Of a stretch of 64,000 nt of DNA, positions 380 to 61,415 are shown in pieces. The stretch spans positions 1-64,000 of the forward strand of contig JABJKS010000046.1 in assembly GCA_018660265.1 (NCBI GenBank). Reading direction: 5' to 3'. The notes under the pieces were generated by a model. The model saw nothing but the letters and a program-made list of their open reading frames with translations, was not told where the DNA came from and ran no database searches. The number at the start of each line of letters is the position of its first letter. The stretch's first letter is position 1. Source of the stretch: Rhodospirillaceae bacterium (GTDB taxonomy: Bacteria > Pseudomonadota > Alphaproteobacteria > GCA-2731375). Made by a program: the position numbers and the translations under genes.

Positions 380-1887
380 GCTGCTGTACCGGTCAATTGC
401 TTTTCGTTGATGACGCGCTCGGCGGGAAGGCTGACCGTCGCGGTTGTGCCCACATCGATCTCGCTGGTGAGTTGCAGGCTGCCGCCATGGTTTTCCACCA
501 ATCGTTTGGTGATGGCTAGACCCAGGCCCGTGCCTTCTTTGGAAGAGGTGAGGACGCCATGGAGGCGGATGAATGGTTCCTGCACACGTTCTATGTCGAT
601 TGTGGTCATCCCCGCGCCGTGATCGCAAACCTTGAAAACCAAATTGCCGTTGTTGTCGATTTCCGCCTTTACGATGATGGTTGTATCGGGTCGGGTGAAT
701 TTGACTGCGTTGGACAGTAGATTTAGCAGGATCTGTCGCAATTGCCTCTCATCCGCCCTGAGATAGATGGCCGTTACGGGCAATTGCAGGTCGATGCTGA
801 TATTTTCCTTGGCGGCACGATCACGAAGCAGGCGGACACATTCATCGAAAATATGGTTGGCTTCGAAGGTACCTTCCTCAATCTCCATCTGGCCGGCTTC
901 GATGCGGGACAAATCCAGGATGTCGGTGATCAAGGCTAACAAATGCTCCCCACTATTGCGGATGTCGCCGGCATAGTCGCGATAGCGCCTATCCCCCAGG
1001 GGGCCGAAAAGTTCCTGCTGCATGACTTCGGAAAAGCCAATTACCGCATTCAAGGGGGTGCGCAATTCATGGCTGAAATGGGCCAGAAATTCAGATTTTG
1101 TCCGGTTGGCCTGCTCCGCCTCCTCCTTTGCGGCCATCACCTCGGCTTCCGCCTGTTTGCGTTCGGAAATGTCGATGATCGAGATTTGGTAGGCCGCTTT
1201 GCCGTTCCAGGTCACTGCCTGTGCGGATTCTTCGACCCACACGCCCCGCCCGTCCTTGCGCTTCAAATGCATATCGACAAATCTGGATGGTACAATTCCC
1301 TTGCTGCGGCTTTCCATTCTCTGGGCCACCATTTCAAGGTCGTCCGGCATAATGAAATCCGAGACATTGCGTCCGCGCATCTCCTCTCTTTGGTAGCCAA
1401 GCAACTTGGCCAAGGCGTCGTTGACGTAGGTGACACAGGCGTCTTGAATTATGCCGACACCTTGGAGAGAGCTTTCCGTCAGAGTGCGATAGCGTGTTTT
1501 GCTTTCCTCCAACTCCGCCGTCCGCTGGGCGACCCGGCTTTCCAGTTCATCGTGGGCTGTTTTCAGGTCATCACGAAATCTCTGTTGGAGATAGAGCAGG
1601 ATTGCCGTCGTCCAAATGGCAAAAACTGCCATTCCACGATTCGTCAGGACGACCCATGAAATGCCCCCTGCCGGAGAATAAGCATAACCGACACATGTCA
1701 GGACGGTGCCCAAGACTGCCAGTAAAAGTATGGCGCGCCTGCTTGGTGACCACAGGCCCAGCAAAACAAGGCCAACATAGGGAACCCCGCCCGCAACGCC
1801 CAGGGGCATCGACAGATCAAGCACCAACACCGCCATCGCGATGATGCTGCTGAATATGGCGAACCAAGTATTGGACCCCTTAAACAT
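376..1887 (-). CDS. PAS-domain sensor histidine kinase, membrane-bound
   Basis: 503 residues. The N-terminus has about four hydrophobic segments between residues 8 and 100, then a short coiled coil (about 103-130), a PAS sensor domain (about 131-245) and a second helical linker. The HisKA box HFSHELRTPLN puts the phosphorylated histidine at about 273. The ATPase domain shows the N box (LLNLLSNAVKF, about 388-397), DHGAGM (422-427) and GTGLGLAI (452-459), so it should be catalytically complete. There is no receiver domain and no response regulator beside it, so it is an orphan kinase whose partner must be encoded elsewhere. A GGAG Shine-Dalgarno 7 bases before the ATG supports this start. The sensed signal is unknown. 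Confidence 0.93.
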   Translation of the reverse strand: MFKGSNTWFAIFSSIIAMAVLVLDLSMPLGVAGGVPYVGLVLLGLWSPSRRAILLLAVLGTVLTCVGYAYSPAGGISWVVLTNRGMAVFAIWTTAILLYLQQRFRDDLKTAHDELESRVAQRTAELEESKTRYRTLTESSLQGVGIIQDACVTYVNDALAKLLGYQREEMRGRNVSDFIMPDDLEMVAQRMESRSKGIVPSRFVDMHLKRKDGRGVWVEESAQAVTWNGKAAYQISIIDISERKQAEAEVMAAKEEAEQANRTKSEFLAHFSHELRTPLNAVIGFSEVMQQELFGPLGDRRYRDYAGDIRNSGEHLLALITDILDLSRIEAGQMEIEEGTFEANHIFDECVRLLRDRAAKENISIDLQLPVTAIYLRADERQLRQILLNLLSNAVKFTRPDTTIIVKAEIDNNGNLVFKVCDHGAGMTTIDIERVQEPFIRLHGVLTSSKEGTGLGLAITKRLVENHGGSLQLTSEIDVGTTATVSLPAERVINEKQLTGTAA

Positions 1888-2134
1888 CGACGTGCTCCGT
1901 CATCGTCGTCGGTCTTTAATCACTAGCATTCGAACATACTAATATTACAGAATACAGTTCAAAAAATGTTAACGGCGAATCAAAATTCCCCATGACATGT
2001 TAAGTAGGAGAAGGCTGAAAAACCTATCGCCAATACAAAACACGTTGAAATTTTTCACGCCGATGTCAAATTGTCACTCGCGCCGGTTCGTCTGGATTTA
2101 TCTGCTACGGATTATAAAAGAGAAGGCTCAAGCG

Positions 2135-2512
2135 ATGACAAAACAGAAAAATAAAAACCTCGGGTCCCATTTGGCGCAGGTCGTTGTTGGTGCCGGCCTG
2201 GCAATAGGCGGTGGTGCCGTCGGTGCGTCGGCCCATACAACACATTCACCAATGAACCCGGCAGCAGTGAACCCGGCCGCAATTGCGAAACCTGGGGTCC
2301 AGACGCCGGGCACAATGCAGTTGGCGTCCTGCAATGCATGCGGGGCAAAAAAGACCGCCTGCAATCCCTGTGGGAAGGCGACAAAGGCCTGTGGGGCCTG
2401 TGGGGCCTGTAATCCCTGCGCTGCGAAGAAAGGCTGTTCGCCGTGCAATCCGGCTGCCGTTAAAAACCCCTGCGGTTCCTCAAAACCGGCGTGTAATCCC
2501 TGCCAACGTTAG
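2135..2512 (+). CDS. small exported Cys-rich protein with CNPC/CGAC motifs
   Basis: 125 residues from the ATG preceded by AGAAGG at a good distance; a longer open frame begins at 1997 but has no such site. Residues 1-33 look like a signal peptide (hydrophobic AQVVVGAGLAIGGG core, then ASA). After a Pro/Asn-rich spacer the protein has 13 cysteines between residues 66 and 123, mostly as CxxC pairs (CNAC, CNPC, CGAC, CSPC, CNPC). Such spacing suggests soft-metal binding. It resembles in style the low-complexity exported precursors such as bufferins, which chelate copper after thiooxazole modification, but the usual partner genes (MNIO/DUF692 enzyme and BufC) are not adjacent. Function is therefore unassigned; metal buffering is inference. 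Confidence 0.72.
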   Translation: MTKQKNKNLGSHLAQVVVGAGLAIGGGAVGASAHTTHSPMNPAAVNPAAIAKPGVQTPGTMQLASCNACGAKKTACNPCGKATKACGACGACNPCAAKKGCSPCNPAAVKNPCGSSKPACNPCQR

Positions 2513-2537
2513 AGCGATCTGAATTGTTTGCGGAAAC

Positions 2538-3209
2538 TCAGGGCAATTGCAGCACGGCAAAATTATGCACTGCGTGAATAATCACGGGCACCCATAGGCT
2601 GCCCGAATATTCGTAGATCCAGGCCAGGAAGAAAAACAACGCGAAAAGGCCCGGCATGGCACCAAGGTCGAAATGCAGCAGGGCATGGCCAACGGCAGCA
2701 AGGGCGGCGGCTTGCCAAATGCCGACGCGGTGGCGCAGCCAGCCGAACAGCAGGCCGCGAAAGACCATTTCCTCCATCAAGGGGGCCAAAACCACGACAC
2801 CCATGATCATGGCCAACAGATAGTTAGGCTGGCTCCACGCTTCTGTATTCGACAAGGGCAGGGCGGGGCCCTCGGCGGCACCAAAAAGGGGTTTGAACAT
2901 GGCTGTGATCAACATGGTGGCGGGCACGGAAAACAGCCCCAACGCCACGGCGCGCAACAACCAACGCCTTTCGATCCGGGTAAATCCCAGCCGCGCCCAA
3001 CCGTCGCTTTCCTGCCAGACCGTGGCGAACCAGACCCAAATGATGGATGCCAGGCTGGGTAAAACCAAATAGGCCATCAATATTGCGGTTGGGTCCTGGT
3101 CATGGCCCGTGCCCAAATAGCGCTTGCCCAGCAGGGCTATCGTCAATTGTACGACGATGGCTCCCATGACGGCGCGCCACATATCCCCCGTTTCAATGCG
3201 TGTCGGCAT
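2538..3209 (-). CDS. CPBP-family intramembrane glutamic endopeptidase
   Basis: 223 residues from the ATG at 3209; a longer frame running to 3350 would overlap pncC and lacks support. The protein has several hydrophobic segments and the CPBP (CAAX protease/bacteriocin-processing, Abi) signature: EEMVFRG (E146, E147, R151), the histidine of GHALLHFD, and the C-terminal IHAVHN. Rce1-like members cleave within or near the membrane; many bacterial members have unknown substrates. It starts 7 bases after the pncC stop, so it is the last gene of the leftward ispDF-pgpA-LLM-pncC operon. No prenylation or bacteriocin gene lies nearby to suggest a substrate. Confidence 0.88.
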   Translation of the reverse strand: MPTRIETGDMWRAVMGAIVVQLTIALLGKRYLGTGHDQDPTAILMAYLVLPSLASIIWVWFATVWQESDGWARLGFTRIERRWLLRAVALGLFSVPATMLITAMFKPLFGAAEGPALPLSNTEAWSQPNYLLAMIMGVVVLAPLMEEMVFRGLLFGWLRHRVGIWQAAALAAVGHALLHFDLGAMPGLFALFFFLAWIYEYSGSLWVPVIIHAVHNFAVLQLP

Positions 3210-3216
3210 GCCGCAT

Positions 3217-3726
3217 TTAGCTCTTGGCCAGCGTTTCGGCCAGCATCTCGGCCAGCATTTCCAGGGCGGTATGGACCGTGGCCTCCCGAATGCCGCCTCG
3301 GCCCAGATCACCATAGCGCTGTTCCCGGTGCAGGGTCGCTTTACCGTCACGGGCGCAGGCTAGATGCACCAGTCCCACCGGTTTATCCGCCGTGCCGCCG
3401 CCCGGCCCCGCCACCCCGGTGCAGGCGACCGCCATATGAGCCAAGGAATGCGCCACCGCGCCTTCGGCCATGGCACGCGCCACAGGTTCGGAAACGGCCC
3501 CATGGCCCTCAATCAGTGCCATGGGTACATCCAGCATGACATTCTTGGCCTCGTTGGAATAGGTGACGAAGCCCCGGTCTACCACGGTGGATGAGCCGGC
3601 AATTTCGGTCAGACAGCCAGCGATTAAGCCACCGGTGCACGATTCAGCCGTTGCCACCATGACGCCCGCCGCCTCGCAGGCGCGTAATAACTCCGTGGCT
3701 TGTGCCGTCAATTGATCACTAAACAT
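3217..3726 (-). CDS. pncC: CinA-C family nicotinamide-nucleotide amidase
   Basis: 169 residues, the size of stand-alone CinA C-terminal domains. It shows the family motifs ATAESCTGG (about 25-33), TYSNEAK and VAGPGGG. PncC deamidates nicotinamide mononucleotide to nicotinate mononucleotide, recycling the by-product of NAD-dependent DNA ligase. The C-terminus carries a short repeated EMLAEMLAETLAKS tail. The ATG lies 3 bases after the stop of the LLM oxidoreductase gene, so translation is probably coupled. Confidence 0.93.
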   Translation of the reverse strand: MFSDQLTAQATELLRACEAAGVMVATAESCTGGLIAGCLTEIAGSSTVVDRGFVTYSNEAKNVMLDVPMALIEGHGAVSEPVARAMAEGAVAHSLAHMAVACTGVAGPGGGTADKPVGLVHLACARDGKATLHREQRYGDLGRGGIREATVHTALEMLAEMLAETLAKS

Positions 3727-3729
3727 CTG

Positions 3730-4812
3730 CTAGTACTTCGCCATGATCTGTTCCGAGAATTCCTGGAAGTTGGAGCGGGCCACATGAATGGGCGGCATCA
3801 GCACAACCTCACGCAGCCCGGCGGCCTCCAACGCCTTCATGCGGGAGAGGATCTCGTCCGGTTCCCCCACCAGGCCGCCCGATGCCTTGATCATTTCTGG
3901 CGTGACGAAGCGCCGCTCTGCCTCCGGCAGATAGGCGCAATGGCCGGTGTGGAGGATTTGATGGCGGCGGTCTTCGGGCATTTCCGTCTCCACATAGCGT
4001 TTGTAGTCCTCCCACAGGCCACGGACTTCGCCCAGGATGAATTTGTCGTTGCCCCTCTGGCGGTAGAGCTCGTACCAAAAATGCAGGGATGATACGACCT
4101 GTGCCCCGGTCTCTTCGATGACCCGGTCCGAGGTCAAGGTCTCACCCGGTCGCATTATGCAGGCAAAGGTCAGGACGGAGGCATGGAAGCTGTCATCGAT
4201 CACCCGGCCAACCTCTTCACCGCCGCGGCGGATACGCTCCAGGTTCTGGGTTAGCAGGCCGTAGGGTTCGTTGCCGGCACTGATCCGGCCATCGCCATAG
4301 GCACCGGTTGCAGCCAGGGCTTTCGGCCCGTTGGCGGCGACATAGATCGGCACCTGATGTTCCGTGTCGATGCATTCCAGTTGCCGGTCCAGGAACTTGA
4401 TGGGCTGGCTTTCCTTGCCGGGCGGGGCATATTCGACTTCTTCGCCTGCCAACAAGCCGCGCACGACACGGAGGTAATCGCGAAAAGCCGATGGCGGCAC
4501 CGGGTCCTGGCCCATGATCCGCATTGCTGTGTGCCCGGTGCCGATGCCCAGGAAAACCCGGCCCGGTGCGATGCGATTAATGCTGGCAATAGAGTGCGCG
4601 GTGACCGGGGCCAGGCGGGTGCCCGCGATGGCGACGCCCGTGCCCAGCCGCAGGGTCGAGGTGTTTTGCGCCGCCAGGGCCATCGTGGCGTAGCAGTCGG
4701 ACCAGATCATCTGACTATCGGGCACCCAGCCGCTGTCATAGCCGAGATCTTCCAAATACGGGAAAATCTGCCAATCATCAATTTTCGTCGCTACGATGCC
4801 GCCAAATTTCAT
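3730..4812 (-). CDS. LLM-class flavin-dependent oxidoreductase
   Basis: 360 residues with a bacterial-luciferase-like TIM barrel: N-terminal MKFGGIVATK strand, the LRLGTGVAIAG segment and RVFLGIGTGH, typical of FMN- or F420-dependent LLM enzymes. The exact substrate cannot be read from the sequence. It is placed inside the pgpA-pncC pair that is normally contiguous, apparently as an insertion into the operon; spacing is 30 bases after pgpA and 3 bases before pncC. A second unrelated-length LLM gene lies at 18724-19788. Confidence 0.88.
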   Translation of the reverse strand: MKFGGIVATKIDDWQIFPYLEDLGYDSGWVPDSQMIWSDCYATMALAAQNTSTLRLGTGVAIAGTRLAPVTAHSIASINRIAPGRVFLGIGTGHTAMRIMGQDPVPPSAFRDYLRVVRGLLAGEEVEYAPPGKESQPIKFLDRQLECIDTEHQVPIYVAANGPKALAATGAYGDGRISAGNEPYGLLTQNLERIRRGGEEVGRVIDDSFHASVLTFACIMRPGETLTSDRVIEETGAQVVSSLHFWYELYRQRGNDKFILGEVRGLWEDYKRYVETEMPEDRRHQILHTGHCAYLPEAERRFVTPEMIKASGGLVGEPDEILSRMKALEAAGLREVVLMPPIHVARSNFQEFSEQIMAKY

Positions 4813-4842
4813 TGTCTCGCTCTCCCAAACTTCAAACCGACT

Positions 4843-5328
4843 TCAAAACCAGTATCGAAATCCCGCAATGGCCAACAGACCATAAAGGGCCGCCATAATA
4901 TCATCCATCATAATACCCAAACCGCCTGTAAAACGCCGCTCCGCCCAATTTGCGGGCCAGGGTTTGGCAATATCGCACAAGCGGAACAATAAAAATCCAG
5001 CCAGATAGTACCAGGGATCAAGCGGTGCCACGATCAGTACCAGCCATTGCCCGGCGACTTCATCAATCACCACCATGCCGGGGTCTTTGCCACCGCCCGC
5101 CTGCTCGTAAACGCCACCTGCCCAAATTCCCAGGGCGAAAACCACGACAGTTGCCACCGCCAGGGCGATAGGCCCTGCATAATAGACAATGCCCCAGGCA
5201 AAGGGCAGGGCGGCTAAAGACCCCCACGTACCCGGTGCCGGACGCAGCAGGCCGGCACCAAACCAGGTCGCCAACAAACAGGCCGGGTGAGACAGCGGCA
5301 GAGGTGCTTTCGAAAGGAATTTCGCCAT
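4843..5328 (-). CDS. pgpA: phosphatidylglycerophosphatase A
   Basis: 161 residues with the PgpA motifs PAPGTWGS, IDEVAGQW, FRLCDIAKPWP and GGLGIMMDD, plus three to four hydrophobic segments. The enzyme removes phosphate from phosphatidylglycerophosphate in the inner membrane to give phosphatidylglycerol. Its ATG is immediately adjacent to the stop codon of ispDF, so the two are co-transcribed and probably translationally coupled. The ispDF-pgpA-pncC order is a common alphaproteobacterial arrangement. Confidence 0.96.
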   Translation of the reverse strand: MAKFLSKAPLPLSHPACLLATWFGAGLLRPAPGTWGSLAALPFAWGIVYYAGPIALAVATVVVFALGIWAGGVYEQAGGGKDPGMVVIDEVAGQWLVLIVAPLDPWYYLAGFLLFRLCDIAKPWPANWAERRFTGGLGIMMDDIMAALYGLLAIAGFRYWF

Positions 5329-8532: not shown

Positions 8533-9732
8533 TCAAATCCGGCCGTCGACGCTGATCCCATCGGCCATGAATTCTGTGATCTGGTCGTCGCTATAACCGG
8601 CTTCTTTTAGGACTTCCACGCTGTGTTCGCCCAGCAACGCTGGAAGCCGCCGGATATCGGGCGGGGTTTCTGAGAACTTAACCGGCGGTGCTGTTAGTTT
8701 TATGCCGCCCTCGGTGGGGTGATCAAAGGTTTGGAAAAACCCCACGTCCCGCATATGCGGATCCGCAGACAGATCGTCCAACCCCGTGGCAACGCCGTGG
8801 GGAATATCGCCTTCTTCCAATGCAGCCAGCAGATCCGCTGTCTTCCAGTCCTTGACCAGGTTTGCGACCAATTCGTACAGCTCGCCAATTTTTTCGCTAC
8901 GGACTTTTGGATCGATGACCCGTGGATCATCCATCATATCGTTGCGATCCATGATCTTGAAAAAGGCCCGCCATTGTTTTGTGTTGTATGGCAGGGCACA
9001 GATATATCCGTCGGCGGTGGCGTAGGGGCGGCGGTATTCGACCATGGACCGCTCGTAACCGGCGGGGCCCAAGGCAGGTTCAAATGCCTGGCCCGAATGA
9101 TGCTCAACGAGGTTGAAGCCGACCATGGACTCGAACATGGGTACTTCTACCATCTGACCCTGTGCCGTACGCTCACGGCTGAACAATGCTGCCAGGGTGG
9201 CGTGTGCTGCAACTTGCGAACAGATCTTGTCGCAGACAGAGGCATTTACGAATTTCGGCGGGCCGTCGCGGCCACCCTGCATAGCCGCCATGCCGGACAG
9301 ACCTTGAATAATATCGTCATAGGCCGGACGCTTGGCATAGGGGCCTGACTGACCGAAGCCTACAAGGGCGACGTAGATAATCTTTTCATTAACCGCCCGG
9401 CAGTCGTCATAGCCAAGGCCGAGGCGATCCATGGCAGCAGGACGGATGGAACTGATGATCACATCAACATCTTCGACCAGTTTCAAGCAAGCTTCCCGAC
9501 CCCGCTCCGTCTTCAGGTCCAGCACGATACAGCGCTTGTTTCGGTTGGCCATGATGAAAAAGTGCCCCATGCCCTCGTTGCGGAAGGGGGATATGCCACG
9601 GGTGATGTCACCTTCGTGGGATTCCACCTTCACCACTTCCGCTCCATAGTCGCCAAGGATCTGACAGGCGTAAGGCCCATATCCCACCGAGGTCAAGTCC
9701 AGTACCCGTATACCGTCGAGAGGTCCCGCCAT
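8533..9732 (-). CDS. CaiB/BaiF family III CoA-transferase
   Basis: 399 residues from the ATG at 9732 (a TTG lies directly before it; GGAG is 8 bases upstream). The N-terminus GIRVLDLTSVGYGPYACQ and the segment ending NASVCDKICS are typical; D168 aligns with the aspartate that forms the acyl-aspartyl-CoA intermediate in formyl-CoA transferase. Family III enzymes move CoA between carboxylic acids, for example carnitine, bile acids, oxalate or itaconate. No adjacent dehydrogenase or ligase fixes the substrate. Confidence 0.9.
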   Translation of the reverse strand: MAGPLDGIRVLDLTSVGYGPYACQILGDYGAEVVKVESHEGDITRGISPFRNEGMGHFFIMANRNKRCIVLDLKTERGREACLKLVEDVDVIISSIRPAAMDRLGLGYDDCRAVNEKIIYVALVGFGQSGPYAKRPAYDDIIQGLSGMAAMQGGRDGPPKFVNASVCDKICSQVAAHATLAALFSRERTAQGQMVEVPMFESMVGFNLVEHHSGQAFEPALGPAGYERSMVEYRRPYATADGYICALPYNTKQWRAFFKIMDRNDMMDDPRVIDPKVRSEKIGELYELVANLVKDWKTADLLAALEEGDIPHGVATGLDDLSADPHMRDVGFFQTFDHPTEGGIKLTAPPVKFSETPPDIRRLPALLGEHSVEVLKEAGYSDDQITEFMADGISVDGRI

Positions 9733-9879
9733 CAAATCTACTCCATGCCGTATCGTTACGATCCATCTACTAGCTCATCGCAACCACCCCCGCCAAGGGG
9801 CAATTAACCTGGTATCAAGCGGCTGCGACTAATATTTTTGGGTATATTCGTTTCGCTGACAAGCCGATTAAAAGGGTGA

Positions 9880-10599
9880 TCAGCGGGAGAAGTCTTCCTC
9901 CAACGCGTCATCCAAGGCACCGGCCAGTTTCTCCAACCGTTCGCGATCCCGCACATGCAGGATACGGCCCTTGCGCTCCACAATGCCGCCATTGGCTAAT
10001 AGTGAGATGGAACGGGCGACGGTTTCCCGTGTGGTTGATGCCATGGCTGCAATCGCCTTATGGGTCGGAAGCGCCCGGATCAACCAATTTCCCGGGTCCA
10101 CGGGGCTTTCTTCCGCCAACAGCAGAATTTGCCGGTAGACCCGTTCCACCGCGCCCAGGGTCGACAGATACATAATCCGTTCGTCGCAACTACGCACAAT
10201 GCCCGCCAGACGCCCCAGGACACGCACTGCTAATTCCGGATGTCCGACGATCTGATCCTTGAACAGCTGCGGCGATAAGGATCCCAGCAGGCAATCCACC
10301 AAGGCCACCACGCTGGCGGATCGGGGGCGACCATCGATGGCTGATAACTCGCCAAAAAAACTGCCTGATTGCAGGCGGGCCAAAGCTATTTCACGCCCGG
10401 TCATCGAAAAATTGACGACTTGCACCGCGCCTTCTGAAACGAAATAGACATCCCGGTCACTGCTGTCTTTGTCCAGGATCTGTTCTCCGGACTTATAACG
10501 CCGCCACCTGCAGCGCTTTTCCAGGCTGCGCATGCTTTCTTCGCTAATACCTTGCAGCAATCCAATGCTGGCAAGCCGGTTTGTCTGCTCGCTCGACAC
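9880..10599 (-). CDS. Crp/Fnr-family transcriptional regulator
   Basis: 239 residues from a GTG with GAGGGG upstream. Residues about 15-125 form a cyclic-nucleotide-binding-like beta barrel, including GSFFGELSAIDGRPRSASV, which retains the GE-x-RxA pattern of the cNMP pocket. The C-terminus has a Crp-type helix-turn-helix with the recognition region TTRETVARSISLL. There is no Fnr cysteine cluster at the N-terminus, so direct oxygen sensing through an iron-sulfur cluster is unlikely. Targets are unknown; it is transcribed alone. Confidence 0.92.
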   Translation of the reverse strand: MSSEQTNRLASIGLLQGISEESMRSLEKRCRWRRYKSGEQILDKDSSDRDVYFVSEGAVQVVNFSMTGREIALARLQSGSFFGELSAIDGRPRSASVVALVDCLLGSLSPQLFKDQIVGHPELAVRVLGRLAGIVRSCDERIMYLSTLGAVERVYRQILLLAEESPVDPGNWLIRALPTHKAIAAMASTTRETVARSISLLANGGIVERKGRILHVRDRERLEKLAGALDDALEEDFSR

Positions 10600-53776: not shown

Positions 53777-54652
53777 GTGAATAAATTGAAGATACTTGCC
53801 TTCGGTGCGGCAATAGCGTTTACCGCCACTGCCCTGCCGGCACAACAGGTCTTGGCGGAGACTTTTGTTTTTACCGCCATTCCAGATGAGAACGAGGCCC
53901 GATTGCGGGAGCGATTTGATAAAGTTGCCGCGTATCTAACAAAGACACTGGGCGTTGAAACCAAATATATCCCGGTGAAATCCTACGCGGCGGCAGTTAC
54001 GGCATTTCGCAATAATCAAGTCCAGTTGGGCTGGTTCGGCGGTCTGTCCGGCGTCCGGGCCCGTCACTTGGTGCCAGGTTCGGAAGCAATCGCCCAGGGC
54101 TTTGAGGATCAGGCGTTCGAGACCTATTTTATAGCCCATGCCAGCACGGGCCTGAAACCATCGGCGGAATTTCCGGCAGAAATCGAAGGTAAAACCTTCA
54201 CCTTCGGTTCCAAAGGATCCACCTCCGGTCGGTTGATGCCGGAATATTATGTGCGTCAATATTTCAAATCCGCGCCGAATAGCATTTTCACCAAGGTTGG
54301 ATTTAGCGGTAACCATTCCAAAACCATCGCATTGGTGCAGTCAGGCGCTTATCAGGTCGGGGCGGTCAACTTCAAGGTCTGGGAGAACGAAATTAAGACA
54401 GGTAAGATCGATCCGGCGAAAATTTCCGTGGTATGGAAAACGCCACCCTATCCCGATTACCAATGGACCATCCGAGGGGATGTGGAGAAGCGTTGGAAGC
54501 CCGGCTTTAAAGCCAAGGTCCGGGAGGCATTGTTGAATATGAAAGATCCCGACCTGCTGGCGTCTTTCCCCCGGAAAAGTTTCATTCCTGCATCGAACAG
54601 CGACTACAAACCAATTCTGGATGTCGCGAAGCTTATTGATTTGATCAACTGA
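53777..54652 (+). CDS. PhnD-like periplasmic binding protein, putative selenium-compound importer
   Basis: 291 residues from a GTG with GGGG 9 bases upstream. Signal peptide 1-27 ends at VLA. The mature protein has the phosphonate/phosphite-binding (PhnD) pattern FTAIPDENEARLRERFDKVA, QLGWFGGLSGV and GSKGSTSGRLMPEYYV. NCBI-type families include a PhnD-like group annotated as putative selenate-binding and found near selD; this copy, three genes before a selD fusion and close to selenoneine genes, fits that group. The ligand is not proven. First gene of a four-gene operon. Confidence 0.85.
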   Translation: MNKLKILAFGAAIAFTATALPAQQVLAETFVFTAIPDENEARLRERFDKVAAYLTKTLGVETKYIPVKSYAAAVTAFRNNQVQLGWFGGLSGVRARHLVPGSEAIAQGFEDQAFETYFIAHASTGLKPSAEFPAEIEGKTFTFGSKGSTSGRLMPEYYVRQYFKSAPNSIFTKVGFSGNHSKTIALVQSGAYQVGAVNFKVWENEIKTGKIDPAKISVVWKTPPYPDYQWTIRGDVEKRWKPGFKAKVREALLNMKDPDLLASFPRKSFIPASNSDYKPILDVAKLIDLIN

Positions 54653-54654
54653 CG

Positions 54655-55308
54655 GTGTTGTTCAAACTTTCCAACGAGGATCTGGGTTACGGTGGAGGTG
54701 TCGTGTTGCGCGGCATCTCCATCGGTATTTCTAAAGGCGAACGCGTGGCGCTGGTTGGTGAAAGCGGTGCCGGCAAATCCCCCTTGCTATCCGTATTGCA
54801 GGATCGTTATGGCGGCAATACGGCGCTGATCCCGCAACAGGCCGGCTTGGTTCGTAGTCTTAGCGTTTTTCACAATATTTATATGGGTAGCCTGCACCGC
54901 CATGGCACGGCCTATAATTTATTGAATTTGGCATGGCCGCAAAAGGCCGAGGTGGCACGAATACGGCCCATTGTCGAACGTCTGGGTCTGGGCGATAAAC
55001 TGTTTGTGCCGACGGGTGAACTATCCGGCGGGCAACAGCAACGGACGGCCATTGCCCGGGCAATCCTGCAGGGCGGTGATGCGGTGCTGGGCGACGAACC
55101 GGTCTCCGCCTCTGACAATCATCAGTCCCGCGTCATTCTGGCGGCGCTATCGGAAACCTTCACCACCGTCGTCTTGGCCATGCATGACGTGGATCTGGCG
55201 TTGGAGTTCTCGACCCGTATCATCGGTATCAAGGACGGCGGCATTGCGCTGGATGCACCAGCTGCTGAATTGACCCGGTCGGGCCTCGATTTTCTGTACC
55301 GGAAATAG
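54655..55308 (+). CDS. ABC transporter ATP-binding protein of the selenium locus
   Basis: 217 residues from a GTG two bases after the binding-protein stop. Walker A GESGAGKS (35-42), signature LSGGQQQR (123-130), Walker B with D147-E148 in AVLGDEPVSASD, and the H-loop MHDVDLA. The residue after the Walker serine is proline, and the D-loop reads SASD instead of SALD; both are slightly unusual but essential residues remain. It is short compared with PhnC (about 250-260). It should power the permease encoded next. Confidence 0.88.
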   Translation: MLFKLSNEDLGYGGGVVLRGISIGISKGERVALVGESGAGKSPLLSVLQDRYGGNTALIPQQAGLVRSLSVFHNIYMGSLHRHGTAYNLLNLAWPQKAEVARIRPIVERLGLGDKLFVPTGELSGGQQQRTAIARAILQGGDAVLGDEPVSASDNHQSRVILAALSETFTTVVLAMHDVDLALEFSTRIIGIKDGGIALDAPAAELTRSGLDFLYRK

Positions 55309-55310
55309 GT

Positions 55311-56843
55311 ATGTCGAGCCCGCAGGCCCCGCCACATGTCTTGTCCACAAAAGTGCGCCGCACTTATTCGCCGGTTGTAAAGACCAGCCTGGCTTTTGTC
55401 GGGGTGGCGGCGGTTTGCCTGTTTTTCGCAGATATATCTATCACGACCCTGGACCCGTGGTCGGAACTGGGGCGAATGGCGCAGGGTGTTGTAACACCGG
55501 ATTTTTCGGTCCTTGGCGGGATCGGCATGATCATTGTCCAAACCATTGCATTCGCCCTTTGTGGCGTAGCACTCGGGGCGGTGGGTGGCTTTCTGCTGGC
55601 CCAGGTCTTTCATATTGGCCCGGTACGTTGGACATGTGCTGCGGTCCGCGCCATCCACGAATTGTTCTGGGCCCTGATATTTTTGCAAATGCTTGGTTTA
55701 ACACCCCTGACCGGCGTGCTGGCCATCGCCATTCCCTATGCTGGCATCTGCGCCAAGGTCTATGCCGAGACCCTGGAAGAGGCGGAATTGCCGGCCCTGG
55801 TGGCGCTACCCTACGGCACCGGCGTTATTTCAGGCTTTTTCTTTGCACGGCTGCCCGATGTTTGGGTGCATATAAAAAACTATACCTCGTATCGTTTTGA
55901 ATGCGGTTTGAGGTCCAGCGCGGTCCTGGGTTTCGTCGGCCTGCCGACTTTGGGATTTTATCTGGAGACGGCGTTTGGCGAAGGCAATTATTCCGAAGCC
56001 GCCGCCCTGTTGATCATATTTTACATCCTGATTGCGACCTTGCGGTTTTGGATGCGGCCGAAATTAGTTGGTTTGTATGTCTTGGTGGCACCGTTCCTGC
56101 TGGGTGGCGGGGCGGCGATTGAAATGAGCAATATAACGCGGTTTCTGACCGTCGACATTGTGCCGGCACCATTGCGGAACGGTAGCCTTACCACAAGCGA
56201 TACATGGAGTAATCTGGCGGACTGGGCCGGTATGTTGTTTTTTGATCAGGCTCTGCCTGGCATGGCGGCAACCTTTTTGCTGACCCAAATTGCATTGGTC
56301 GCAACCGGTATTCTGGCCCTGGCCCTATTCCCCTTGATCTCGAAGAAGTTTTTTGGCCGGGTGCCGCGCCTGATTGGGCATGTTTTTTTAGTTGTCCTAC
56401 GCTCGACCCCGGAATTCATTCTGGCTTACATCTTCCTACAGCTTTGGGGGCCGTCCATGTTGCCGGCCATTGTGGCCCTGTCACTGCACAATGGTGCCAT
56501 TATCGGTCATCTGGTGGGCCGGTTCAGCGACGAGGTGCGCCTGCGGCCCGACAGCCCGCGTGGCCTCAACCTCTATGGCTATGAAATTCTGCCGCGGATC
56601 TATGGGCAGTTTCTGGCGTTCCTGTTTTACCGCTGGGAGGTGATCATGCGCGAAACCGCCATTCTGGGTATCCTGGGGATCGCCACTTTGGGTTTCTTTG
56701 TAGATAGCGCCCTGGCCGATATTCGCCTGGACCGGGTGATGTTTTTGATTGCAATCATGGTCATATTTAACGTAGCGGTGGATGCTCTATCGCGGCATAT
56801 TCGCAGCCGATTGCGGTTGAGCACTCGGACCGGCCAAGCTTAA
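55311..56843 (+). CDS. ABC permease with two fused membrane halves
   Basis: 510 residues starting two bases after the ATPase stop. Two BPD-type permease units lie in one chain: about residues 75-255 (with AIHELFWALIFLQMLGL and SSAVLGFVGLPTLGFYLE) and about 310-500 (with STPEFILAYIFLQLWGP and ETAILGILGIATLGFFVD). The halves show the same ELFWALIFLQ/EFILAYIFLQ and AVLGFVG/AILGILG segments, an internal duplication. PhnE is normally one unit that dimerises. The arrangement suits import of a small oxyanion; here, by context, a selenium compound. Confidence 0.88.
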   Translation: MSSPQAPPHVLSTKVRRTYSPVVKTSLAFVGVAAVCLFFADISITTLDPWSELGRMAQGVVTPDFSVLGGIGMIIVQTIAFALCGVALGAVGGFLLAQVFHIGPVRWTCAAVRAIHELFWALIFLQMLGLTPLTGVLAIAIPYAGICAKVYAETLEEAELPALVALPYGTGVISGFFFARLPDVWVHIKNYTSYRFECGLRSSAVLGFVGLPTLGFYLETAFGEGNYSEAAALLIIFYILIATLRFWMRPKLVGLYVLVAPFLLGGGAAIEMSNITRFLTVDIVPAPLRNGSLTTSDTWSNLADWAGMLFFDQALPGMAATFLLTQIALVATGILALALFPLISKKFFGRVPRLIGHVFLVVLRSTPEFILAYIFLQLWGPSMLPAIVALSLHNGAIIGHLVGRFSDEVRLRPDSPRGLNLYGYEILPRIYGQFLAFLFYRWEVIMRETAILGILGIATLGFFVDSALADIRLDRVMFLIAIMVIFNVAVDALSRHIRSRLRLSTRTGQA

Positions 56844-56866
56844 GTACTGTTAGGACAGAAGACATA

Positions 56867-59134
56867 ATGAAAGCTAGTTCGGACGCGATTGTAAAAGATT
56901 TGGTTTTGGTTGGTGGCGGTCACAGCCACGTCATTGTCCTCAAAAAATTCGCCATGAAGCCGTTGCCCGGCGTGCGCCTGACCGTCATCGCGCGCGATGT
57001 GCATACGCCCTATTCGGGCATGCTGCCGGGATATGTGGCGGGCCATTATAATTTTGACGAGGTGCATATTGATCTACGCCCTCTTTGCCAGTTCGCCGGT
57101 GCCCGGCTGTATCATGACACCGCAGTCAAAATCGATACCTACGCCAAGCAGGTGATTTGTGCGGGGCGACCCGCAGTGCCATACGATGTGCTGTCTATCA
57201 ACATCGGCTCCACGCCCAGTTTTGATGACGTCGCCGGCGCGACGGATTTTGCGACGCCCGTGAAGCCAATTAATAACTTTATCGACCGTTGGCACAGCTT
57301 GGTGGATCGTGTTCTGAAAAGACCCGGACCCCATCGCATTGGTGTGGTCGGCGCCGGCGCCGGCGGTATGGAATTGTTGCTGGCCGTCCAATTTCGTCTG
57401 GGCAACCTACTGGCCGAACAGGGGCAAAGTACCGATGATTTGGAATTTCATCTCATTTTCCGATCAGAAACCATCCTGCCCGATTTCAGCGGCGGTGTGC
57501 GGCGGAAGTTTGAGCGCCTATTGGATTTGCGCGGTGTTCACCTCCACAACAATGCTGTGGCATCCCAGGTAGCACCCGGTGTGCTGTCTTTAACTGACGG
57601 CAAAACCATTGCCCTGGACGAAATCCTCTGGGTGACCGCTGCCGGTGCGCCATCCTGGCCAAGGGAATCTGGCCTTGAGGTTGACGGGGCCGGTTTCATA
57701 AAAGTCCGGGACACGCTGCAATCGATAACGCACGATGATATCTTTGCAGCCGGCGATATTGCCGCCGTGGTGAACCATCCCCGGCCTAAGGCCGGTGTTT
57801 TTGCAGTTCGCCAGGGACCGCCGTTGAATGACAATCTGCGCCGGGTTCTGATCGGCCAGCAAGCCCGGTCCTTTACCCCGCAAAAGAACTTTTTGGTATT
57901 GATTACGAGCGGTGACAAGAACGCCGTGGCCGCGAAATGGGGTTGGACGGCCCAGGGCGGCTGGGTCTGGAAATGGAAAGACTGGATCGACCAACGGTTC
58001 ATGCGCAGGTTCAACGAACTCCCCGAAATGGCGCAAGAAAAGGCGGCAGCGTTGAACCCAGGCCTCGCCGACAAGGCGACGTTGAGCGATATTTCGGCTA
58101 TCGCCATGCGCTGCGGCGGCTGTGGTGCCAAGGTTGGCGCTGACGTTCTAAGCCGCGCCCTGTCAGAGTTGGAACCAATCCCCAACGAGGACGTCTTGGT
58201 CGGCCTGCATGCCCCTGATGATGCAGCCGTGGTGCAAATTCCCGACGGCAAGGTCATGGTCCATACGGTGGATTATTTCCGCGCCTTCATCGACGACGCC
58301 TATGTTTTCGGCCAAGTCGCGGCCAATCACGCTCTTAGCGATATTTTCGCCATGGGGGCGGAAGCGCAATCGGCCCTGGCCATTGCCACCGTGCCTTATG
58401 GTCTGGAGGCTAAGGTTGAGGCTTCCCTGCGGGAAATGATGACCGGTGCCATGGAAGTTTTGAACGAAGCGGGCGCGACTTTGGTCGGCGGTCATACCAG
58501 CGAGGGGCCGGAATTGGCGTTGGGATTTTCGGTCAACGGCCTGGCGGATCGTCAGGCAATTTTGCGCAAGGGCGGCATGGCAACGGGCGAGGTATTGATC
58601 CTGACCAAACCCCTTGGCACCGGCACCCTATTTGCGGCTGATATGCAGCAAAAGGCCAAGGGGCGCTGGATTGAGAACGCACTGAAATCCATGGTGCAAT
58701 CCAACCGTCTTGCAGCCCTTTGTCTATTTCGCCATGGTGCCAGCGCCTGCACGGATGTCACCGGTTTCGGTCTGTTGGGCCACGCGGTGGAGATGACCAA
58801 GGCGTCGAATGTCGACGTCGAGATTGACTTGGCGGCCCTGCCGATTATGGACGGTGCCCTGGACACGGTGCGCCTGGGGATCCTGAGTTCTTTACAGCCT
58901 GCAAACGTACGCCTGCGCCGGGCTATTCGGAATATGGAAGCCGTGCGGGAGAACGAACGCTATCCCCTGGTGTTTGATCCACAAACATCAGGCGGCCTGC
59001 TTGCCAGTATTCAGCCAGGGGCGGTGCAGGCCTGCCTAAAAGAACTGCATGATCTGGGATACGATCAGGCGACGGTCATTGGACGGGTCACGGCCGAAAC
59101 GGACCATCTGGAACCCATCACCCTGGTCGCGTGA
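56867..59134 (+). CDS. senC: FAD oxidoreductase-selenophosphate synthetase fusion (SenC/SelD)
   Basis: 755 residues. Residues 1-385 are a pyridine-nucleotide-disulfide/NDH-like flavoprotein (VGGGHSH 15-21, second Rossmann GVVGAGAGGMEL 159-170, GDIA 296-299). Residues about 405-755 are SelD: RCGGCGAKVG gives the active-site cysteine C419 and lysine K422, then DDAA and the GGHTSEGPE loop. SelD makes selenophosphate from selenide and ATP. The fusion itself is known in many proteobacteria; the flavin half may reduce selenium or a thiol carrier. Beside senB and senA, it fits the SenC role, though it could also serve selenouridine or selenocysteine synthesis. RBS AGGACAG. Confidence 0.93.
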   Translation: MKASSDAIVKDLVLVGGGHSHVIVLKKFAMKPLPGVRLTVIARDVHTPYSGMLPGYVAGHYNFDEVHIDLRPLCQFAGARLYHDTAVKIDTYAKQVICAGRPAVPYDVLSINIGSTPSFDDVAGATDFATPVKPINNFIDRWHSLVDRVLKRPGPHRIGVVGAGAGGMELLLAVQFRLGNLLAEQGQSTDDLEFHLIFRSETILPDFSGGVRRKFERLLDLRGVHLHNNAVASQVAPGVLSLTDGKTIALDEILWVTAAGAPSWPRESGLEVDGAGFIKVRDTLQSITHDDIFAAGDIAAVVNHPRPKAGVFAVRQGPPLNDNLRRVLIGQQARSFTPQKNFLVLITSGDKNAVAAKWGWTAQGGWVWKWKDWIDQRFMRRFNELPEMAQEKAAALNPGLADKATLSDISAIAMRCGGCGAKVGADVLSRALSELEPIPNEDVLVGLHAPDDAAVVQIPDGKVMVHTVDYFRAFIDDAYVFGQVAANHALSDIFAMGAEAQSALAIATVPYGLEAKVEASLREMMTGAMEVLNEAGATLVGGHTSEGPELALGFSVNGLADRQAILRKGGMATGEVLILTKPLGTGTLFAADMQQKAKGRWIENALKSMVQSNRLAALCLFRHGASACTDVTGFGLLGHAVEMTKASNVDVEIDLAALPIMDGALDTVRLGILSSLQPANVRLRRAIRNMEAVRENERYPLVFDPQTSGGLLASIQPGAVQACLKELHDLGYDQATVIGRVTAETDHLEPITLVA

Positions 59135-60080
59135 CCGCGGCGATAATATTCACCAAGGCGGCCTGTTCATGGGCCGGCTGAAACAAGGGTGCCAGCTTGC
59201 CGCCATGGTGGGCCAGGGATTTTAAAAACCCGGGCTCCATCTCGGCCCGCAAAAGCACTTCGGCCAAGGCCACTTCATCACCAACGGGGTAATAGCCGGG
59301 GTAATCCGGCCCCAACAAACCGATATTGCCCGCTATATCACTGGCAATGACCGGTACGCCGGCGACGATGGCTTCCGAGACCACATTGGCACCGCCTTCC
59401 TGGACCGAACTGATTACCATGGCGTGGGTTTTGCCGAATTCCCGGCGCACCTGCCCGCCGGACACCGCACCGCGCCAAGAATAGCGTGGGTTCCGGGCCA
59501 TTTCGGCCTGGGCCTGGTCAGCAAAATCCATCGAATGTGCGCCGCCCAGGTGATGCACCCGCAACCTCGAGGTTGGGGGCAGCAGCCGTGCCGCCAGGGC
59601 GGTCCGGAACGGATCTTTTTCAGCCCGCAAATGGCCGATGACACAGATATCGAAATGGCGTTTTGATGGTTGTCGGGGCTGGGTTAGCGGCTGCGCTGAT
59701 TGCCTGACAACATGCAGTTTTGGGCGCAATGGTGCGGGTAATTCCGGGCCAATGAGATCATGCAGACAGATCAGCGCATCGGCCATGTCCATGCTGCCTA
59801 GGGTCAACGCCCGCTCTGTCTGCAAAAACGTATTAACGTCCGTACCGCCCAGGCCGACCACCAATGGCCCTTGGGTCATCTGTTCCCGATAACGCCGCAC
59901 TGCTGCGCCGCTGTGGCGCGCGTGCAGGGCGATCATGACATCCGTGGCTTCGCCTTCGTAGTCAGTGGAAATTCTCACCAGGTGGCCGGATTGGCGCAGC
60001 AAACGGGCCCACCGCAAGGCTGTCGTCCGATTTCCGTTTTTCGATTGTTTGCCGGCTGGGGTGATTAGGCTAATCTTCAC
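59118..60080 (-). CDS. senB: SenB-type selenosugar synthase (GT4-like)
   Basis: 320 residues from a GTG at 60080; the frame continues upstream into senA but the family N-terminus is KISLITPAGK. Other family segments are NGNRTTALRWARLL, ALHARHSGAAV, GLGGTDV, VIGHLRAEKDPFRTALAARL, QEGGANVVSEAIVAGVPV and NIGLLGPDYPGYYPVGD. This is the glycosyltransferase-like family once known only as TIGR04348, in which SenB makes a selenosugar from UDP-sugar and selenophosphate. Its end overlaps senC by 17 bases convergently, and its start is 27 bases from the divergent senA start. Confidence 0.9.
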   Translation of the reverse strand: MKISLITPAGKQSKNGNRTTALRWARLLRQSGHLVRISTDYEGEATDVMIALHARHSGAAVRRYREQMTQGPLVVGLGGTDVNTFLQTERALTLGSMDMADALICLHDLIGPELPAPLRPKLHVVRQSAQPLTQPRQPSKRHFDICVIGHLRAEKDPFRTALAARLLPPTSRLRVHHLGGAHSMDFADQAQAEMARNPRYSWRGAVSGGQVRREFGKTHAMVISSVQEGGANVVSEAIVAGVPVIASDIAGNIGLLGPDYPGYYPVGDEVALAEVLLRAEMEPGFLKSLAHHGGKLAPLFQPAHEQAALVNIIAAVTRPG

Positions 60081-60107
60081 GTATTCATTCCAATTCAGGG
60101 ACCCAAC
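60081..60107. promoter_or_regulatory. 27-bp senB/senA divergent spacer
   Basis: Only 27 bases separate the senB GTG from the senA ATG. It holds both ribosome-binding sites (CAGGGA at 60096-60101 for senA; GGAAT on the other strand for senB). No room is left for two promoters, so at least one must lie inside the opposite gene, producing overlapping 5' transcripts. Confidence 0.6.
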
Positions 60108-61415
60108 ATGACCCAGCCTGTAAGTACCGCACATTTGATTGCCAATATGCAAGACACCCGTAACCGAACCCTGGAACTGGTCCGTGATCTGGACGATCAA
60201 CAGATTATGGGCCCAAAAGTCCGCACGGTTAATCCCCTAAAGTGGGAGATCGGCCATGCGGCGCATTTCTATGAGGTTTTCATTCTGCGTCAGTTGTACG
60301 GCTATGACAGTGTCATTGGTGAACGGGCAGACCAACTCTACGATTCGATCAATATCCACCACGATGTCAGATGGGATCTGCCCCTGCCGAACCGGGCAGA
60401 CACGCTGGCTTATATGCAGGCCGTGTTTGACCGTCTGGTTGAACGCCTGGACGGCGAAATGGCATCCGAACAGGACAGCTTTATTTATCAGTTCGGCATC
60501 TTTCACGAAGATATGCACACCGAGGCGTTTTTGTGGGCCCGGCAAAACCTGGCCTATCCGACGCCTGATCTGGACATTGCGGCGGACGTCAGCGCCGAAC
60601 GAATGGTCGGGCATCATCCGGGCTGGGCCTCCGTGCCGGGGGGCCGTTTTAGAATGGGGGCTGAAAAGACCGCACCGTTCAAGTTTGATAACGAGAAATG
60701 GGCCCACGATATTATTGTTGCGCCGTTTGAAATATCCAGGGCCGCTGTGACCAATGCCGAATTTCAGGCCTTCGTCGATGATGGCGGTTATGACAGGGCA
60801 GATTTTTGGGACCCGGCCGGCTGGACCTGGCGGCAGCAAGCTGAGGCAGACCATCCTGTCTATTGGCAGTCCGATGGGCCCGGCAAGTGGTTGGTCAGAC
60901 GCTTCGACCGGACGTTTCCCCTGCCGCCCCACGAGGCCGTCATACATGTCAATTGGTACGAAGCCGACGCCTATTGCAAATGGGCCGGCCAACGCCTGCC
61001 CCGCGAGGCGGAATGGGAAGTCGCAGCCCTGGGGGAAGCCGACCAGAGCGGCGATTTGGCAGCCGTCAAACGGCGCTATCCCTGGGGTGATGCTATTCCA
61101 GACCCAACGCGGGCCAACCTCGACGGGCGCGGCCTGGGACCGCTTGACGTCGGCGCATTAGCGGCCGGCGATAGCGCCTTCGGTTGTCGTCAGATGCTGG
61201 GCAATGTCTGGGAATGGACGGCGGATACATTCGAACCCTTCACAGGGTTTTCCGCTGATGCCTATACGGAATATTCAACCATGCTGTTCGGCGACACTAA
61301 AGTCATGCGCGGCGGTGCCTGGACGAGCAGAGGGCGCATGGTCCACGGTACCTACCGCAACTTTTTCGGCCCCGAACGACGCGACGTCTTTGCCGGCTTT
61401 CGTACCTGCCGATAG
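60108..61415 (+). CDS. senA: SenA-type selenoneine synthase (EgtB homologue)
   Basis: 435 residues. The N-terminal DinB-like domain supplies the iron triad: H50 in WEIGHAAHFYE and H133/H137 in FHEDMHTEAF. The C-terminal formylglycine-enzyme-like domain (about 165-435) has SVPGGRFRMGAE, LPREAEWEVAA, MLGNVWEWTAD and MRGGAWTS. EgtB joins a thiol to hercynine for ergothioneine; SenA does the same with a selenosugar to give selenoneine. Assignment as SenA instead of EgtB rests on the adjacent senB and senC genes. EgtD, EgtC and EgtE are absent here, so hercynine must come from elsewhere. Confidence 0.88.
   Translation: MTQPVSTAHLIANMQDTRNRTLELVRDLDDQQIMGPKVRTVNPLKWEIGHAAHFYEVFILRQLYGYDSVIGERADQLYDSINIHHDVRWDLPLPNRADTLAYMQAVFDRLVERLDGEMASEQDSFIYQFGIFHEDMHTEAFLWARQNLAYPTPDLDIAADVSAERMVGHHPGWASVPGGRFRMGAEKTAPFKFDNEKWAHDIIVAPFEISRAAVTNAEFQAFVDDGGYDRADFWDPAGWTWRQQAEADHPVYWQSDGPGKWLVRRFDRTFPLPPHEAVIHVNWYEADAYCKWAGQRLPREAEWEVAALGEADQSGDLAAVKRRYPWGDAIPDPTRANLDGRGLGPLDVGALAAGDSAFGCRQMLGNVWEWTADTFEPFTGFSADAYTEYSTMLFGDTKVMRGGAWTSRGRMVHGTYRNFFGPERRDVFAGFRTCR

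Follow-up and report, generated by a model that had tools for sequence, protein, structure and literature searches.

The window, a 64,000-nucleotide stretch of the genome of a marine Rhodospirillaceae bacterium, contains at positions 53777-61415 a six-gene locus that probably combines genes for the synthesis of the selenium antioxidant selenoneine (a sen cluster) with a dedicated selenium importer, which would feed this synthesis by the route described below. The enzymology of the sen cluster (senA, senB, senC) is known from Variovorax paradoxus (Kayrouz et al. 2022, summarised in PMC9814287). What makes the locus interesting is its importer, since a 2026 review states that a specific high-affinity selenium transport system has not been identified in prokaryotes (PMC13188914). 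The idea of such an importer is partly anticipated, as NCBI already names the family of its binding protein (NCBIfam TIGR04553) a "putative selenate ABC transporter substrate-binding protein".

Layout and products of the locus

The open reading frames of the window place the six genes, within 7.6 kb, exactly where the original prediction had put them, and profile scores bear out the families assigned to them, with four of the six products (binding protein, SelD fusion, SenB and SenA) exceeding curated cut-offs of selenium families. Four genes on the forward strand, separated by gaps of only 2, 2 and 23 bp, form one run: a PhnD-like substrate-binding protein (SBP; 53777-54652), a PhnC-like ABC ATPase with a GTG start (54655-55308; Pfam ABC_tran), a permease composed of two fused PhnE-like halves (55311-56843; TIGR01097, 192 bits in two stretches) and a SenC-type selenophosphate synthetase, in which an FAD oxidoreductase is fused to SelD (56867-59134). 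The senB frame (59118-60200) lies on the reverse strand; its 3' end overlaps that of selD by 17 bp (tail-to-tail), and it stands head-to-head with the forward-strand senA (60108-61415). The importer thus does share a run with senC, as had been predicted, but a single operon of all six genes was rejected because senB sits on the opposite strand. The true start of senB is probably near 60080, as the match to its family model (TIGR04348) spans only 59139-60074. The interleaving of selD, senB and senA is kept across species (sister loci L037, L039, L040 and L042), and the senB and senA starts overlap or lie only ~27 bp apart, which leaves little space for separate promoters between them. No conserved RNA element was found near the locus at Rfam gathering thresholds, and the upstream regions of the sister loci align poorly with one another.

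Like the Variovorax cluster, the locus has SenA, SenB and a SelD-type SenC encoded side by side, from the same families and with the SenA active-site residues in common. In contrast to that cluster, senC is here an oxidoreductase/SelD fusion that continues the run of the three ABC importer genes, and senB is read from the other strand. The fusion protein scores 497 bits with TIGR03169 (cut-off 310) and 310 bits with the SelD model TIGR00476 (cut-off 125), while falling under the cut-off of the "fusion_not_SelD" model (469 vs 700). It is a complete two-domain match to the known oxidoreductase/SelD fusion, including the catalytic cysteine and lysine (RCGGCGAK), both of which align with those of the solved SelD 3u0o. 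SenB scores 389.9 bits with TIGR04348 (cut-off 300); the next-best family reaches 99.6 bits against its own cut-off of 400, and the best solved matches are SenB structures. An ordinary GT4 glycosyltransferase, which would have spoken against the original assignment, is therefore not what we see, the SenB model scoring far above the GT4 families.

The same genome encodes, besides the Cys-containing fusion, a second, stand-alone SelD with selenocysteine at the active site (contig C31, about 57158-58084; L179, about 9200-10187), where an in-frame TGA occupies the position of the catalytic Cys. The two forms occur together in 4/4 sampled genomes of the genus. A selA-selB pair is present on contig C1 (L180, 7768-11172), and ARAGORN found no tRNA-Sec within the two stretches of this genome that were scanned.

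Within the importer, the two permease halves align with each other at 25% identity over 218 aa (E 3e-14). The Walker A motif of the ATPase reads GKSP instead of GKST, with a proline codon (CCC) at 54781-54783. The sister genome G359 has GKST and an ACC codon at the same position, and proline occurs there in none of roughly 90 homologues compared. The GKSP motif may reflect an assembly or sequencing error or, alternatively, a damaging change that impairs the ATPase.

Identity of SenA and supply of hercynine

The senA product, composed of a DinB-like and an FGE-like domain, scores 473.8 bits with the SenA model NF041186 (cut-off 420) and 335.8 bits with the EgtB model TIGR03440, which is under that model's cut-off of 360. 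It retains an iron-binding histidine triad (H50/H133/H137) and, in its C-terminal part, Y389, N418 and F419, the same residues as in Variovorax SenA (8k5i). A tree of 48 rows places it together with Variovorax SenA and OvsA in one clade and separates it from the alphaproteobacterial and mycobacterial EgtB proteins (100/99). We predict that this enzyme makes selenoneine from hercynine and a selenosugar. A SenA-like paralogue in genome G104 (L098; G104:C15:103962-105233) has lost two histidines of the iron-binding triad (H, R, L).

The original prediction had seen a full path in the locus. The genes for import, selenophosphate formation, SenB and SenA are indeed there, but the hercynine enzyme, EgtD, is encoded outside the window, on the genome's contig C64. 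It shares 80% identity with the copies that adjoin senA in sister species; in two of these egtD lies directly 3' of senA. A profile search of this genome returned no EgtB above the cut-off, and among the 14 SenA genomes of the class EgtD is present in 13 and EgtB, above its cut-off, in only two. With EgtD and without EgtB, hercynine in this organism appears to serve selenoneine, no other use being apparent. EgtD was not found in G359, a genome of the same genus (98% complete) that has senABC and the importer, possibly owing to an assembly gap.

Two other identities of the SenA-like enzyme were weighed. OvsA, the selenium-using enzyme of the ovoselenol pathway, shares the wider clade with the window protein and was put to the test because it is the best solved match, ahead of Variovorax SenA: by E-value the OvsA entries 8ux5 and 8u41 (the latter apparently the wild type and the former a variant) reach 1e-103 and 1e-100, against 1e-62 for 8k5i. 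Were the enzyme an OvsA, its product would be ovoselenol. The window protein, however, exceeds the SenA equivalog cut-off and has Y, N and F at the three C-terminal positions at which 8u41 has M, Q and A. The genes for hercynine supply accompany it as well, with egtD adjoining senA in sister species and also encoded in its own genome, and no competing EgtB. Having weighed the OvsA identity seriously, we judge it very unlikely on the motif and the hercynine supply. Even less credible, to the point that we consider it ruled out provided that the family models are sound, is an ordinary ergothioneine locus in which an EgtB happens to lie beside an unrelated glycosyltransferase and SelD. SenA is distantly homologous to EgtB, but score, tree, motif and context all separate the two, so that the grouping with EgtB that would have contradicted the original assignment does not occur; moreover, SenB exceeds its cut-off and always accompanies SenA (14/14). 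We therefore retain the assignment as SenA, which, together with those of the SelD fusion and SenB, agrees with the original prediction in that all three exceed their family cut-offs.

Genomic partners and ligand of the importer

To follow the importer across genomes we counted SenA, SenB and TIGR04553 proteins above their cut-offs in a sample of 385 genomes of the class. The 14 genomes with SenA were also those with SenB; TIGR04553 was present in 18, of which 11 belonged to these 14 (Fisher p=2e-14), so that three SenA genomes were without the importer. The original prediction had proposed a survey of this co-occurrence, and the association proved strong. In 10 of the 11 overlap genomes one stretch holds the importer together with the SelD fusion and senB, and in six it also includes senA. 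In the eleventh (G306) a contig end cuts the stretch within senB, and the remainder of senB, together with senA, lies at the end of a different contig; senA of G124 is likewise near a contig end. As the genes sit at contig ends, the clusters of these two genomes may have been broken in assembly.

The association is not confined to sen genes. SelD is encoded in 17 of the 18 importer genomes of the class (vs 83/385 overall, p=2e-11) and in 15/16 importer genomes of a phylum sample that has some genomes in common with it (vs 48/190 overall, p=2e-9); G506 has the importer and lacks SelD. All seven class genomes with the importer and without sen genes encode SelA. G007 has selA and selB immediately after the importer, and in G123 the selA-selB pair lies within 10 kb. 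We also surveyed GTDB species genomes, where the 80 loci with the best TIGR04553 matches came from Alpha- and Gammaproteobacteria, Nitrospinota and SAR324, a few of them from genomes that the class sample also contained. Neighbours of the importer were sen genes (senABC) in 21 loci, a selD-mnmH pair in 17, selD only in 8 and selA or selB in 3. In the other 31 loci, many of them on short contigs, no recognised selenium gene was nearby. Where more than 8 kb was available on both sides, a selenium gene was present in 32/45 loci and absent from 13/45, and the sampled neighbours of loci without selenium genes showed no common alternative partner. Core genes of C-P lyase (phnG/H/I/J homologues) were near the importer in just 1/97 loci, and there in a separate cluster; a linkage to phosphonate genes, which would have counted against the original proposal, was thus not seen.

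In a tree of 97 SBP rows, whose bootstrap is not fully settled, the selenium-associated proteins form one clade (100/99) that is sister to the PhnD1 proteins of picocyanobacteria. Within this clade the sen-, mnmH- and selA-linked SBPs are intermingled, which points to one transporter type coupled repeatedly to different selenium pathways. An importer that has recombined with three pathways sharing only selenium as their input probably has selenium as its substrate. Overall, it is probably a selenium importer common to the three pathways rather than specific to selenoneine. Of the new-looking, dedicated importer proposed originally, the strong linkage to selenium genes thus stands, while the novelty is reduced by the earlier TIGR04553 family and the dedication to selenoneine by the sharing among pathways.

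The SBP scores 368.6 bits with TIGR04553 (cut-off 250), of which it is a clear member, and 144.9 bits with the PhnD equivalog TIGR03431, under the cut-off of 261.1; Pfam names its domain Phosphonate-bd. TIGR04553 is a hypothetical equivalog whose cut-off also admits picocyanobacterial PhnD1 (297 and 329 bits), and our survey ties the family to genes of selenoneine, tRNA selenouridine and selenocysteine; selenium binding and transport by the selenium clade are putative. PhnD1 of Prochlorococcus and Synechococcus (5LQ5, 5LQ8 and 7S6G) are the closest solved structures (about 40% identity), and an AF2 model of the SBP (pLDDT 92) matches 7s6g with a Z of 34. When the pocket was mapped on 7S6G/5LQ5, all direct ligand contacts of the MITS9220 PhnD1 proved conserved (Y70, S148, T149, S150, H180, D227 and Y228, with D37 and N198 as stabilising residues). 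These residues are invariant across 30 relatives, except for D227 (29/30). Beside the pocket, K68, S69, K146 and G147 are invariant in the selenium clade only and are missing from the sister branch of PhnD1, which binds phosphite and phosphate in vitro. Contig C64 of this genome encodes a second, weaker TIGR04553-like SBP (218 bits, under the cut-off; 1143-4926, L045). Its gene is directly followed by that of a hybrid sensor histidine kinase and runs convergently to egtD, a layout reminiscent of oxyanion-sensing AioX-type proteins.

Selenite has three oxygens, like phosphite, and a lone pair in place of the P-H bond. This likeness in shape to phosphite leads us to prefer selenite to selenate, the ligand in the name of TIGR04553, and the PhnD1-like contact residues suggest the same cargo. 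PhnD1 prefers the three-oxygen phosphite over the four-oxygen phosphate by about 10-fold or more (PMC5700983, PMC10284923), and the capping tyrosine that restricts the PhnD1 pocket is conserved in the SBP; both observations argue against selenate. Given the family name, and as selenate is common in oxic sea water, a selenium importer with selenate, or else an organic selenium compound, as its cargo is possible but rather unlikely. Selenite accordingly remains the preferred ligand within a selenium importer. A different question is whether the sen genes are real and the importer beside them, by incidental adjacency, carries a phosphorus oxyanion (phosphite, phosphate or phosphonate). The pocket alone would admit phosphorus just as well, since the closest measured relatives bind phosphite and phosphate through identical contact residues, and both the PhnD-family fold and the Pfam label point the same way. 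On the other hand, the SBP stays under the PhnD equivalog cut-off, belongs to a separate clade with its own invariant residues by the pocket, is practically never near C-P-lyase core genes and is very strongly tied, by co-occurrence as well as adjacency, to three unrelated selenium pathways. This makes a phosphorus cargo improbable, and transport of phosphonate in particular was rejected on score, tree, motif and context.

Proposed pathway and its implications

With selenium as the putative cargo, the genes of the locus can be arranged in a route to selenoneine. In the periplasm the SBP would bind a selenium oxyanion, selenite being the most likely one, and the ATPase and the double permease would import it. 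Once in the cell, selenium would be reduced to selenide, possibly with the aid of the FAD half of the fusion protein, and converted by the SelD half to selenophosphate. SenB would then use selenophosphate to form a selenosugar, which SenA would couple to hercynine, supplied by the EgtD encoded elsewhere in the genome, the predicted product being selenoneine.

A broader generalisation may be offered as a speculation, one that we think more apt to fail than to hold. The TIGR04553 ABC system would be the missing dedicated high-affinity selenite importer of bacteria, a shared front end that has repeatedly been plugged into pathways for selenoneine, tRNA selenouridine and selenocysteine. The picocyanobacterial PhnDCE would be its sister with selenite as the true ligand, and PhnD1 would bind phosphite as a side effect of the similar shape of the two ions. 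PhnDCE occurs in all sequenced marine picocyanobacteria. In our literature search, which covered sources other than the primary 2022 and 2024 papers, nothing relevant was found that links PhnD-like proteins to selenium or sen genes to a transporter, and selenium is not mentioned in the main text of the study on PhnD1 ligands (PMC10284923).

The locus and the survey together provide a concrete three-gene candidate for a selenium importer, with a ligand predicted from a solved relative. The selenite reading would also offer an explanation for the puzzle of the picocyanobacterial PhnDCE, the transporter role of whose PhnD1 has been described as paradoxical (PMC10284923).
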